The position numbers were made by a program, and so were the translations under genes. The notes under the pieces are model-generated. The model was not told the DNA's origin. It saw only the letters and a program-made list of their open reading frames with translations, and made no database searches. Below are positions 39,495 through 45,963 of a stretch of DNA of 64,000 nucleotides, one piece after another. The stretch is from Methylococcales bacterium (GTDB lineage: Bacteria; Pseudomonadota; Gammaproteobacteria; Methylococcales; Methylomonadaceae): the NCBI GenBank assembly GCA_030949405.1, contig JAUZSN010000002.1, positions 2,466,553 to 2,530,552 on the forward strand, read 5' to 3'. How positions within the stretch are numbered: the first letter of the stretch is position 1; every line of letters begins with the position of its first letter.

Positions 39495-40703
39495 TTATTC
39501 ATTAAAAAAATGATTAGGCCACTGTTCAATTTCGCCTAATTCATTAATATTTAAATCCGTTACGCTGGATTCTTTGTCATTATTACGACAAACATAAAGT
39601 TTTAAATCATCAACAGAATAACTTTTTTCGGCAACACGACCTTGAAAGCGCCGTAATAAATGCTCACTATGACTTTCAATAATGACTTGAATATTACGCT
39701 GTTTAGAAACATTCAAAATAATATCAGCCAAACCACTGTGAATGGATGGGTGTAAATAAATTTCAGGTTGGTCGATTAAAACCGTACTCTCTTCAGGAAC
39801 ATAATAAAGCAAGACGAGGACGGGAAGGACTTGGGAAACACTTAACCCCACATCGGTTAAAAAAAACTCGGTGCTATTATTGGTTTTTTTAACCAAAGGA
39901 CGGTATAAATTAGAATGAGGGGCCATTTCTTTAATCGAAAATTGATCGACTAATCCTAATTTCTTTAACCAATACGAAATAATGACGGAAAAGGGTTCTA
40001 ATTTATCGTTTAATAGCCTCATTTCATTACAAATAGTGGCCGATAAAATAGCCTCCATACACCACTCCCCTCGAAATCCAACACCCACAGGGTTAGAGGA
40101 AAACCATTGATATTCTCTCTTTACCGGTTCACGTAACGCACTTAAATAGTAAATTCCGTCCATCATCTGTTCATACTCAAATTCAAAGACTCTTAAAAAA
40201 TTAGAGACTAAATCTATTTGGGATTCATTCGGAAAAAGATGGGTTTTAACAGGGTGTAAAACCTGCTTGATAAATTTTTCATTTTGTATGAAATCAAAAT
40301 GCCCCCGTGAATTTAAATTTAATTCAAACGACGTATGCGTGGTTTTATACCCTAATGAGCGGAGTTGAAGTTGTTGTTGAGCTAAATTAACGCTTGCTTG
40401 CGTTTGAATATACGTTGAATGATTCGTCGGTTTCCAATCAATAACCCAGCTTAGTGGTAATTGAGCCTGATGTTGATAAATAAGATTTTCGTACGTTCCT
40501 AAATCAACGAAGGTGGGGGCATGATTTAAATTTAAAACCACCCCGCTACCCGTTGCCTCTTTAGTTTGTTTCAACATCAATAAGAATTGAATTAAACTAC
40601 TTTTTCCTGAGTTATTTGCACCGAATAAAGCCGTTACTTGAGAAAAGTGTATATCAAGTTCCTTCCATGCTTTAAAATTTTTAAGTTGTAACTGTTTTAA
40701 CAT
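39495..40703 (-). CDS. AAA ATPase with DUF3696 C-terminus (OLD-like)
   Basis: 402-residue predicted ATPase. Walker A FGANNSGKSSL lies at about residues 28-38, a weak ABC signature in TDVGLSVSQVLPVL, Walker B VLIDQPEIYLHP, and the H-loop IIESHSEHLLRR. The C-terminus INELGEIEQWPNHFF is the DUF3696 signature. Such ATPases resemble the ATPase part of OLD-family and other anti-phage proteins but have no nuclease domain; the function is unknown. Its ATG begins 2 bases after the stop of the Hcp-like gene, with AAAGGG as ribosome-binding site inside that gene, so the two are cotranscribed and translationally linked. Confidence 0.82.
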   Translation of the reverse strand: MLKQLQLKNFKAWKELDIHFSQVTALFGANNSGKSSLIQFLLMLKQTKEATGSGVVLNLNHAPTFVDLGTYENLIYQHQAQLPLSWVIDWKPTNHSTYIQTQASVNLAQQQLQLRSLGYKTTHTSFELNLNSRGHFDFIQNEKFIKQVLHPVKTHLFPNESQIDLVSNFLRVFEFEYEQMMDGIYYLSALREPVKREYQWFSSNPVGVGFRGEWCMEAILSATICNEMRLLNDKLEPFSVIISYWLKKLGLVDQFSIKEMAPHSNLYRPLVKKTNNSTEFFLTDVGLSVSQVLPVLVLLYYVPEESTVLIDQPEIYLHPSIHSGLADIILNVSKQRNIQVIIESHSEHLLRRFQGRVAEKSYSVDDLKLYVCRNNDKESSVTDLNINELGEIEQWPNHFFNE

Positions 40704-40705
40704 AA

Positions 40706-42352
40706 CTATTGCCCTTTTAACATCGCTTTAATATCTGCCTCAACGGTATCAATTCCTTTTAAAGCAAATGCGTCACTTAATTTCTCCAAAATATCCTGAT
40801 TAAAAAAAGGCGGGAGTGTCGGGCCTAAACGTATATTTTTCACCCCTAATTCTAATAAAGCTAAAAATATGATAATGGTTTGTTGTTCATACCATGCAAT
40901 ATTAAACGATACGGGCATTTTATTTAACTCCGTTAGCCCTAGTTCCGTTTGCAAGCTTTGTAGAAAACTAATAATGGCATAAAAATCATTCGTTTGTCCT
41001 GCATCTAATAAGCGGGGAATGCCCTTAATTTCACCTAAGTCTAATTGATTAAAACGATATTTAGTTTCCCCAGCCGTTAGTATTAACCAATCGTGAGGCA
41101 ATGCTTCGACTAATTCAGTGTAATAACGACGCTCTTTATGACGACCATCACATCCCGCAATAACGATAATACGCTTAATTTCGCTTGCTTGAATAGCGGT
41201 CGCAATCTCTTTTTTCAGAGCTAATAAACTGTGTAAACCATACCCTGTTATCACGGTTGTATCCGTTAATAGGGTTGGTGGGGGATTTTGTTTTGCTTGC
41301 TCAATAAGCGTTGCAAAATTTTTAGTTTGATCGGGCTTTCTATCATCAATATGGGGAATAGCATCCCATCCGACCATGCCCGTGGTAAAGAGTTTTTCTT
41401 GATAAGTTTTTTTAGCTTGTTGCAGGCTATTCGTGGTGACAATTAACGCACCGTTAAATTTAGTAAATTGATTTTTTTGATCTTGCCACGCGCCGCCATA
41501 ATTACCGACTAAATTAAAAAAGCGTTTGAATTTTGGATACGCATGGGCCACAAGGGCTTCACCATGGGTATAAACATCCACGCCTGTTCCCGCCGTTTGT
41601 TCTAATAACTCTTCAATATCTTGTAAATCATGCCCTGAAATTAAAATAGCAGGGTTATTCCAAACATCGGTATGAACTTTAGTCGGGACAGGGTGGCCAA
41701 AGGTTTCGGTATTCGCTTGATTTAATAACGCCATAGCCTCCAGCCCTAATTTTCCACAATGCAAATTCATAGCTAAGGTCTCATCAACCGTATGCTCATT
41801 GATCGAAAAATTTAAAGCCTGATGAACAAAATCATATAAATCTTGATTTTTATAACCGAGTACCGATGAATGCTCAATTAATGAGGCCAGACCTTTCACA
41901 CTATAGACTAAACTTTCACGTAAGCCATGATAAGCTTCATTTTCTTTGAGTAACGTAGGGACACTTAAGGTGTTACCTTGTTCAATAAAAGTCGCTTCAT
42001 CAATACGCTCATAGTCCCATAACGCTTCGTCAGGAATCGTTTCATCAGTGGGGAGGGTTAGTTGCTTGCTTAATACCTTCCGTCGTTGAACAGTTTCACT
42101 AATTAAACGTACAAATTCCGCCGAATCAAAATTAACGTTGGTTACCGTTGCATATAAAGCTTGTGCTGTAAAAGAGTCAATTCGTGTCGTTTTAATGTCT
42201 ACTTGATGGGCTTTGATGACATAAAAAGATAACCCTTTTAAAACATAAACTAATAAATCTTGCAAACTTGCAACGGGGGCTTTTTTACCGCAAATACCCG
42301 TGGTATCACAGGCTTTATTTTTTTTAGCTTCTTGACAATGGTAGCAAAACAT
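40706..42352 (-). CDS. hybrid cluster protein (Hcp) homologue lacking three hybrid-cluster cysteines
   Basis: 548 residues, full length for the class I Hcp/prismane family, whose members reduce hydroxylamine or NO and can S-nitrosylate. The N-terminal cluster motif is complete: Cys3, Cys6, Cys15, Cys21 (C-x2-C-x8-C-x5-C). Of the hybrid-cluster ligands, His241 (SGHDL), Glu265 (YTHGEAL), Cys401 (AGCDG) and Glu489 (AWYEQQ) remain. The cysteine normally in TTNC is Ser309 (TTNSL), that in LTAGC is Glu429 (LTAGETKYRF) and that in DAGQC is Thr454 (DAGQTND). The surrounding sequence is well conserved and the codons read cleanly, so this is not random decay. The hybrid Fe-S-O cluster probably cannot form. 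Followed after 2 bp by a DUF3696 ATPase. The function is unknown and annotation as hydroxylamine reductase would mislead. Confidence 0.9.
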   Translation of the reverse strand: MFCYHCQEAKKNKACDTTGICGKKAPVASLQDLLVYVLKGLSFYVIKAHQVDIKTTRIDSFTAQALYATVTNVNFDSAEFVRLISETVQRRKVLSKQLTLPTDETIPDEALWDYERIDEATFIEQGNTLSVPTLLKENEAYHGLRESLVYSVKGLASLIEHSSVLGYKNQDLYDFVHQALNFSINEHTVDETLAMNLHCGKLGLEAMALLNQANTETFGHPVPTKVHTDVWNNPAILISGHDLQDIEELLEQTAGTGVDVYTHGEALVAHAYPKFKRFFNLVGNYGGAWQDQKNQFTKFNGALIVTTNSLQQAKKTYQEKLFTTGMVGWDAIPHIDDRKPDQTKNFATLIEQAKQNPPPTLLTDTTVITGYGLHSLLALKKEIATAIQASEIKRIIVIAGCDGRHKERRYYTELVEALPHDWLILTAGETKYRFNQLDLGEIKGIPRLLDAGQTNDFYAIISFLQSLQTELGLTELNKMPVSFNIAWYEQQTIIIFLALLELGVKNIRLGPTLPPFFNQDILEKLSDAFALKGIDTVEADIKAMLKGQ

Positions 42353-43868: not shown

Positions 43869-44321
43869 TTAGTCGGTTGAGGCTTGATATTTAATTGAAA
43901 AATCATTCAAGGTGGATAAGGCCACCACTAAATCTTCCTCATTTTCCATTTGAAACGCATTAACGCCTACTCGGGATAAATAAAAGGCTTGGTCAGCCAT
44001 ATAACGGCCTACCGCTCGAATTTCTCCTTGATAATTTAAATCTTTTCTCAATATTCTAGCATGAGAAAAGCCACGCCCATCGGTGAAAGCCGAAAAATTA
44101 AGTTCAATTAAAGCGAAGGTATCCACATCTTCTGCAAGCCTAAGAATATCCACGTCAGAATCAACCCGCACACCCACCTTACCTGAATGTTTCTTTAATA
44201 ACGGTTTTTCTTTGCACCAGCGGTTTAATGAAACGGTAATATCCCCTTCAACTAACGCATCATCATCTGAAATATAAGACCATTGGCTCGCGACGAGTTG
44301 TTTGTCTTTAATGATTTGCAT
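43869..44321 (-). CDS. DUF934 protein, sulfite-reduction accessory
   Basis: 150-residue protein of the DUF934 family, with [10 protein letters not shown] near the middle and the conserved [14 protein letters not shown] segment. Members are nearly always encoded next to siroheme sulfite reductases and are thought to assist assimilatory sulfite reduction; biochemical proof is thin. The gene begins inside the 3' end of the hemoprotein gene (14-bp overlap). Confidence 0.88.
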
Positions 44322-45963
44322 ATACTTTCTCCTTAAATGGGTTCATACCAATACGATTAACGGTACTTAAAAAACTTTCTTCTTCACTTTCCCGTAAGTT
44401 AAGATAAACCCCTAAAATAGTAGAGACGGCTGTAGCCACTTCATTTTTAGCCAGCGAGCGACCTAAACGCGTACCAATCGCTGCTTCATTTTCAGACGAA
44501 CCACCTAAGGTAAATTGATACCATTCCACGCCTTTTTTATCAACCCCTAAAATGCCAATATGTCCCACACTTTGATGTGCGCAACCATTTTGACACCCTG
44601 AGATATTAACTTTCAAATCGCCTAAGTTATGGATGTAATCCATATCATCTAAAACATCGTTAATTTCTTTCGTGATTCCAATTGAACCTGCATTTGCCAA
44701 CGCGCAAAAATCTAAACCTGGGCAGCAAATAATGTCGGTTACCGTTCCAATATTAGGCGTTGCTAATTGTAAGGGAACTAGTTTTTGCCAAAGCACATAC
44801 AAATCGGCTTGTTTGACATCCGCTAACACTAAATTTTGTCGGTGGGTGGTTCTAATTTCACCCAAACTATAGCTATCTGCCAAATCAGCCACCGCATCTA
44901 ATTGGCTATCCGTAATATCTCCCGGTGGGGAGTCAGGGGCTTTTAATGAGACAAAAACGGCTTTATAACCTGCGACTCGATGGGCTACCGTATTATGCTT
45001 AACCCACGTTGCAAAGGCTTTATCTTGTTCTAATAAAGGATTGAAACTTTCATCCTTGCTCGCAATTTCATCATAAGTAGGCGGCGCAAATTGAGCGATC
45101 ATCGTCTCATACGTTTCACTTGAAACTTCCATCCCCTCTCTAATTTTTAGCCATTCCGTCTCGACCTGTTCCCGCACTTTTTCAATACCCGCTTCTCGAA
45201 CTAAAATTTTAATCCGCGCTCGGTATTTATTATCACGACGACCATTAAGATTATAAACGCGTAAAATAGCGTCTAAATACGACAGTAGATCTTTCTTTTC
45301 TAAAAACGGTCTAATTTCAGTTCCAATAACAGGGGTCCGTCCTAACCCGCCGCCGACTAAAATTCTAAAACCGATTTCACCCGCTTCATTTTTAACTAAA
45401 TGAACGCCAATATCGTGAAATTGCGTCGCGGCGCGATCTTGTTCGGTCGCGCTCACGGCAATTTTAAATTTACGCGGCAAATACGCAAATTCAGGATGTA
45501 AAATTGTCCATTTGCGAATAATTTCACAATAAGGGCGAGGATCTTCGAGTTCATCTGTACAGACTCCCGCTAAATGATCCGCCGTTGTATTTCTTAAGCA
45601 GTTTCCACTTGTTTGAATCGCGTGCATTTGTACACTGGCTAATTCTTCTAAAATATCAGGAATTTGTTCCAGTTTTGGCCAGTTAAATTGAATGTTCTGA
45701 CGGGTCGTAATATGAGCGTAGCCCTTATCATAATCCCGTGCAATACTGGCTAATTTACGAAATTGTGTTGATGAAAGCAAGCCATAAGGCCCTGCAATTC
45801 GTAACATAGGGGCATGTGTTTGAATATAGATGCCATTCATTAGGCGCAAAGCGCGAAACTCATCTTCGCCTATTTCTCCTTTTAAATAACGTTGTGTTTG
45901 CCCTCTAAACTGAGTAACCCGTTCGTTAATAAGTGTTTGATCGTCGTCGTTATACTGGTACAT
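44308..45963 (-). CDS. siroheme sulfite (nitrite) reductase, hemoprotein subunit
   Basis: 551-residue siroheme/[4Fe-4S] reductase of the CysI/NirA type. Two ferredoxin-like halves are visible; the N-terminal one has GIYIQTHAPMLRI and TTRQNIQFNWPKLE. Cluster and siroheme cysteines lie in CCPGLDFC (C-x5-C) and SGCQNGC (C-x3-C). The DUF934 partner and the absence of nitrate-assimilation genes favour sulfite as substrate. It probably uses ferredoxin or a separate flavoprotein, as no cysJ is present. Divergent from nhaD. Confidence 0.9.
   Translation of the reverse strand: MYQYNDDDQTLINERVTQFRGQTQRYLKGEIGEDEFRALRLMNGIYIQTHAPMLRIAGPYGLLSSTQFRKLASIARDYDKGYAHITTRQNIQFNWPKLEQIPDILEELASVQMHAIQTSGNCLRNTTADHLAGVCTDELEDPRPYCEIIRKWTILHPEFAYLPRKFKIAVSATEQDRAATQFHDIGVHLVKNEAGEIGFRILVGGGLGRTPVIGTEIRPFLEKKDLLSYLDAILRVYNLNGRRDNKYRARIKILVREAGIEKVREQVETEWLKIREGMEVSSETYETMIAQFAPPTYDEIASKDESFNPLLEQDKAFATWVKHNTVAHRVAGYKAVFVSLKAPDSPPGDITDSQLDAVADLADSYSLGEIRTTHRQNLVLADVKQADLYVLWQKLVPLQLATPNIGTVTDIICCPGLDFCALANAGSIGITKEINDVLDDMDYIHNLGDLKVNISGCQNGCAHQSVGHIGILGVDKKGVEWYQFTLGGSSENEAAIGTRLGRSLAKNEVATAVSTILGVYLNLRESEEESFLSTVNRIGMNPFKEKVYANH

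Follow-up and report, generated by a model that had tools for sequence, protein, structure and literature searches.

The hybrid cluster is the defining feature of Hcp, and its ligands are His244, Glu268, Cys312, Cys406, Cys434, Cys459 and Glu494 in D. vulgaris numbering. In oxidised Hcp, Cys459, His244 and Glu268 hold one iron (PMC9311411), and the equivalents of the persulfido-Cys and Glu494 also hold one iron (PMC10210160). Two cysteines hold the [2Fe-2S] half of the CooS-V cluster (PMC9311411), and we infer by analogy that these are the equivalents of Cys312 and Cys434. The hcp-hcr genes of Methylobacter constitute an NO-reductase pair within a hypoxia/NO system (PMC6977074).

An Hcp-like gene lacking hybrid-cluster cysteine ligands

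The window, a 64,000-nucleotide stretch of a 2.98 Mb Methylococcales genome, carries an Hcp-like gene whose product, here called Hcp*, was compared with canonical Hcp by profile search, alignment and structure prediction. The features of the locus are listed below; residue counts refer to 41 distinct Hcp* sequences, the window protein included.

40706..42352, minus strand: Hcp-like gene without hybrid-cluster cysteines (hcp*), 548 residues from an ATG start, defined by open reading frame, profile and alignment
42281..42352, minus strand: cubane motif MFCYHCQEAKKNKACDTTGICGKK, residues 1-24, with the [4Fe-4S] site Cys3-x2-Cys6-x8-Cys15-x5-Cys21, from alignment
41630..41632, minus strand: His241, equivalent to the D. 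vulgaris iron ligand His244; His in 37 of 41, otherwise Ser (2), Asn (1) or Gln (1)
41558..41560, minus strand: Glu265, equivalent to the D. vulgaris iron ligand Glu268; 41 of 41
41426..41428, minus strand: Ser309, at the position of D. vulgaris Cys312; 40 Ser, 1 Asn, 0 Cys
41150..41152, minus strand: Cys401, equivalent to the D. vulgaris persulfide cysteine Cys406; 23 Cys, 9 Thr, 5 Tyr, 3 Ala, 1 Gly
41066..41068, minus strand: Glu429, at the position of D. vulgaris Cys434; 35 Asp, 6 Glu, no other residue
40991..40993, minus strand: Thr454, at the position of D. vulgaris Cys459; 18 Ser, 14 Thr, 4 Ala, 2 Asn, 1 each of Gly, Val and Ile, 0 Cys
40886..40888, minus strand: Glu489, equivalent to the D. 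vulgaris iron ligand Glu494; 41 of 41
39495..40703, minus strand: AAA_15/DUF3696 ATPase gene directly 3' of hcp* on the same strand, from family match and neighbourhood comparison

The window protein scores well above threshold in both NCBIfam equivalog models for 'hydroxylamine reductase' (NF003658, 661 bits against a cut-off of 367, covering residues 1-546; TIGR01703, 610 bits against 361). Over its full length it can be aligned with Methanothermococcus Hcp (8CNR) and D. vulgaris Hcp, at approximately 45% identity, and its AlphaFold model (pLDDT 91.6) adopts the class I Hcp fold, with TM-scores of 0.95 to 8CNR and 0.96 to 1E2U, compared with approximately 0.55 to CODHs. The full-length class I architecture proposed in an earlier note, made from the sequence alone, is thus borne out by profile, alignment and model. 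The low-confidence parts of the model carry no special meaning, since a canonical control (L026) predicted with the same sequences was equally uncertain in the N-terminal cubane segment and in the loop near residues 401-410.

The alignment with 8CNR and D. vulgaris Hcp places Ser309, Glu429 and Thr454 opposite the hybrid-cluster residues Cys312, Cys434 and Cys459, confirming the three replacements that the note had described. The N-terminal C-x2-C-x8-C-x5-C motif is retained as the note had stated (C3, C6, C15 and C21), also across the clade. His241, Glu265, Cys401 and Glu489 are likewise kept in the window protein; extended to the clade, this part of the note stands for the two glutamates and gives way at Cys401 and, to a lesser degree, at His241.

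An ordinary hybrid cluster almost certainly cannot form in Hcp*, as judged from its ligand positions, because three of the four cysteine ligands are gone in every member and only the cubane cysteines are conserved; on this point the note anticipated the clade-wide result. It follows, with good confidence, that Hcp* would lack ordinary Hcp activity. The cysteine-less genes therefore cast doubt on 'hydroxylamine reductase' annotations, and for Hcp* this automatic label is probably wrong.

Distribution of Hcp* and its residue constraint

Hcp* was found in 41 of 311 Methylococcales genomes, spanning six genera of one family, and about 20 of these 41 genomes also show a second, canonical Hcp. None of the 41 sequences carries Cys at position 309, 429 or 454, and in two trees the group forms one side of a fully supported branch. 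The recurrence that the earlier note had asked about is that of the cysteine-less clade as a whole: the Ser/Glu/Thr triplet itself is one local version of a broader pattern of Ser or Asn, then an acid, then a small non-Cys residue.

In the trees the sister of Hcp* is a canonical class I Hcp, L110, which has 48% identity and all cysteines and was found in one genome of the same genus. L110 already carries the equivalents of Q311 and E407, and since these are already present it may, on sequence grounds, represent a state before cysteine loss. This locus (L110/L152, the second Hcp of genome G002) lies on a contig that also carries gyrA.

A pattern-based scan of 84,980 species was conducted, and its best 80 loci were examined. 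Among these 80, cysteine-less sequences came only from Methylococcales records and from one record labelled simply Gammaproteobacteria, whose counterpart (G023) falls in the same family; the next-best matches among them were all canonical, with the full cysteine set. A literature search, with most subscription journals outside its reach, found no described cysteine-less Hcp subfamily. The names or sources of many carriers suggest marine or saline habitats (L003-L025: Methylobacter marinus, Methyloprofundus, and Bathymodiolus and sponge symbionts).

Selection on Hcp* was assessed by pairwise dN/dS, which lay between 0.07 and 0.12 in nine of ten pairs and was 0.21 in the closest pair. Values of about 0.1 indicate that Hcp* is maintained by selection, and this purifying selection is now strongest at the cubane segment. 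Within residues 1-24, 20 of 24 positions are invariant in Hcp*, compared with 11 of 24 in class I Hcp, with clade-specific invariants at H5, A9, K10, N12, D16 and I20, and the four cubane cysteines are present in every member with a complete N-terminus. At the hybrid-cluster motifs the comparison is reversed (40 of 103 positions invariant in Hcp* against 67 of 103 in canonical class I), so that the description of the surrounding motifs as 'nearly unchanged' fails at clade level, although the Hcp* set is less conserved overall. The weight of constraint has shifted away from the hybrid-cluster motifs and onto the N-terminal [4Fe-4S] segment, and it is strongest at the cubane rather than at the pocket.

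Clade-specific invariants also occur near the former ligands in sequence, for example Q311, Q312, H405 and E407, and beyond the cubane four no compensating cysteine is conserved elsewhere in the clade. The pocket is not strictly conserved: 4 of 41 members have no His241, and about half of Hcp* carries Gln at position 491 in place of the Lys of canonical Hcp. Cys401 is lost in 18 of 41, and these losses fall on separate parts of the tree. Such drift, at His241, Cys401 and Lys491, is not expected of a strictly conserved catalytic site.

Taken together, Hcp* is a vertically maintained, Methylococcales-specific class I Hcp paralogue that lacks the hybrid-cluster cysteine ligands and keeps the N-terminal [4Fe-4S] cysteines. 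A conserved branch of this kind offers a natural test of what the individual parts of the Hcp fold are needed for, and it informs how metal sites change in the HCP/CODH superfamily. It also bears on nitrogen metabolism as read from genomes: the sole Hcp found in a Bathymodiolus puteoserpentis symbiont genome is of the cysteine-less kind, and hcp-based nitrogen inferences therefore need checking. A Methyloprofundus study assigns hydroxylamine reductase to hcp when listing nitrogen genes, and it bases a conclusion on the high transcription of one of two hcp homologues (PMC8788690).

Gene neighbourhood of hcp*

Two arrangements of hcp* recur among its carriers. The first is metG-hcp*-rnfB, in which rnfB, a stand-alone RnfB/RsxB-type ferredoxin gene, mostly begins 9-16 bp after hcp*. 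Because metG and rnfB are also adjacent in many Methylococcales without hcp*, a partnership of hcp* with rnfB is uncertain: the neighbourhood may be accidental, and its value as proof of partnership is weakened. The second arrangement, hcp*-UPF0114-glutaredoxin-like, in some cases followed by the fumarase gene fumC, occurs in the Methyloprofundus group. At six loci of this group (L010, L011, L015, L018, L020 and L021) a UPF0114 membrane protein gene follows hcp* by 2-19 bp and is itself overlapped or abutted by the glutaredoxin-like gene, so that the three form a tight trio.

In the window species hcp* is distant from metG and rnfB alike, and the AAA ATPase gene comes next. This adjacency was found only in the window and at L004, so the ATPase is probably not functionally tied to hcp*, and it was rejected as a system component; its product is weakly similar to defence ATPases of the retron and MADS kinds. 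Nothing convincing or conserved was found in a search for NO/FNR/NsrR-type sites upstream of hcp* in the window genus. Near hcp*, the stretch 43869-45963 on the minus strand encodes a protein resembling siroheme nitrite/sulfite reductases, which reaches the cut-off of no curated NCBIfam model; its small partner gene matches no NCBIfam family, and the pair is upstream of hisBH-like genes.

The window genome contains a second Hcp (L002), a canonical class II protein with 39% identity and all ligands, whose gene adjoins one for an Hcr-like flavin/2Fe-2S reductase. The window gene is separate and encodes a different protein.

Possible states of the pocket and comparison with known systems

The explanation that we prefer, tentatively and with slightly less than even confidence, is that Hcp* is a paralogue with a working cubane, a carboxylate pocket and a non-canonical activity. 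The [4Fe-4S] cubane would be its working redox centre, receiving electrons from a ferredoxin, which in many relatives may be the stand-alone RnfB-like ferredoxin encoded beside hcp*; that this centre is the main redox site we hold with moderate confidence. Of the hybrid cluster in the former active site, the sulfur-rich half would be gone (Cys312 to Ser/Asn, Cys434 to Asp/Glu), and the oxygen-rich half would survive as a carboxylate pocket formed by Glu265, Glu489, the new Asp/Glu429 and usually His241. Such a pocket would most likely bind one metal ion or two, separate from any Fe-S cluster. Hcp* would then be neither a canonical hydroxylamine reductase nor a canonical NO reductase, and its most plausible use would be electron transfer to, or reduction of, a small oxidising molecule (O2, H2O2 or NO, for example).

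Read against the half-cluster division drawn by analogy with CooS-V, Hcp* would have lost both protein ligands of the sulfur-rich half, a pattern compatible with a carboxylate metal site. Glu265, Glu489 and the acidic residue at 429 are favourable, being residues that such a site would need. The acidic pocket is probably either empty or occupied by a non-sulfur metal; a di-metal enzyme is a possible, unproven form of it.

An empty pocket is the substance of the alternative that survives best, which we regard as a real possibility with a minority share of the probability. Here Hcp* would be a pseudo-enzyme with the cubane alone: its pocket would be free of metal, the carboxylates would stabilise the fold through hydrogen bonds and water, and through its [4Fe-4S] module the protein would partner another one in redox reactions or in NO/O2 sensing. 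The centring of conservation on the cubane segment, with its own clade-specific invariants, and the drift of Cys401, Lys491 and His241 speak for this explanation. The hybrid-cluster half of the model is also predicted with higher confidence than in the canonical control (residues 421-500, per-block pLDDT 90-98 against 79-89), a weak point because the models contain no cofactor. Position 429, however, went from Cys to an acid and then stayed Asp or Glu in all 41 sequences, and E265 and E489 are unchanged, whereas drift would be expected of buried carboxylates that served no purpose.

The constant acidity at 429 argues instead for the preferred carboxylate-pocket explanation, which also has a stricter form: D/E429, E265, E489 and His241 would hold two metals, reduced through the cubane. 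The retained ligands correspond to the oxygen-rich half of the known cluster (PMC9311411), and the acidic residue at 429 is absolute. Against this, the mapped ligands comprise three obligatory carboxylates only, with no obligatory His, and class I Hcp conserves the pocket motifs better. Three obligatory carboxylates are fewer ligands than known di-iron carboxylate sites usually employ. The His/Glu/Glu/Glu/Cys di-metal set suggested in the earlier note survives in its acidic part, with Glu265, Glu489 and an acid at 429 universal; as a fixed set it is absent family-wide, since only 23 of 41 have Cys401 and 4 of 41 have no His241. That the Hcp scaffold, in one aerobic methanotroph family, was turned from an Fe-S-O cluster enzyme into a [4Fe-4S]-fed enzyme with a carboxylate-bound metal or di-metal site is rather unlikely in this strict form; if true, it would be new chemistry for the HCP/CODH superfamily.

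A modified Fe-S-O cluster that still assembles, with Ser, Glu and Thr as oxygen ligands, we consider quite improbable. Metal sites in HCP/CODH proteins are plastic, as illustrated by the altered ligand set of CooS-V, which binds a [4Fe-3S-nO] cluster without a canonical Cys (PMC9311411), and CODH groups with Cys replaced by Asp or Glu exist (PMC6344411). In Hcp*, however, every member has lost all three cysteines and 18 of 41 have lost the fourth as well, which leaves the site of some members without any Cys, and no precedent for a cluster in such a site was found. An isolated mutation, a sequencing error or a decaying pseudogene, suggested by the missing ligands of an essential cofactor, is effectively ruled out by the identical losses in 41 distinct sequences without internal stops and by dN/dS of about 0.1; the note had reserved the case that related genomes would show Cys at the three sites, and all 41 are without it.

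Compared with class I Hcp (D. vulgaris 1E2U/1W9M; M. thermolithotrophicus 8CNR, PMC10210160), Hcp* is alike in fold, length, cubane motif, Glu265, Glu489 and, mostly, His241, at approximately 45% identity. It differs in the absence of three hybrid-cluster cysteines from every member, in the frequent loss of Cys401, in the change from Lys to Gln at 491 in about half of the members, and in its genomic neighbours. In class II Hcp with Hcr, represented by the canonical L002, all ligands are kept beside an Hcr-like reductase, and L002 with its neighbour resembles the Methylobacter hcp-hcr pair (PMC6977074). Hcp*, by contrast, has no Hcr neighbour and shows the class I cubane spacing instead of the class II spacing C-x2-C-x11-C-x6-C found in L002.

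CooS-V, which has a CODH fold and a [4Fe-3S-nO] cluster, provides a precedent for ligand changes that alter the cofactor and abolish the named activity (PMC9311411); it keeps most Cys ligands on a CODH scaffold, whereas Hcp* loses three or four on a scaffold like that of class I Hcp. Hcp* is not a Ni,Fe-CODH or a CooS-V protein, as indicated by its TM-score of approximately 0.55 against 0.95 to class I Hcp and by the absence of the C-cluster cysteines. CODH groups A-4, A-6, B-1 to B-3 and G-1 resemble Hcp* in natural replacements of Cys by Asp, Glu, Ser or Thr at the equivalent site; they carry one or two substitutions, and none of those listed combines the three losses of Hcp* (PMC6344411). 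To the site of non-heme di-metal carboxylate enzymes, Hcp* would contribute three obligatory acidic residues, with His not obligatory. Measured against the seven-ligand hybrid-cluster set, Hcp* has Cys at none of the positions of Cys312, Cys434 and Cys459 (0 of 41) and has lost the Cys406 position in 18 of 41: it is a member of the Hcp superfamily by descent and fold that lacks the full ligand set by which hybrid cluster proteins are defined.
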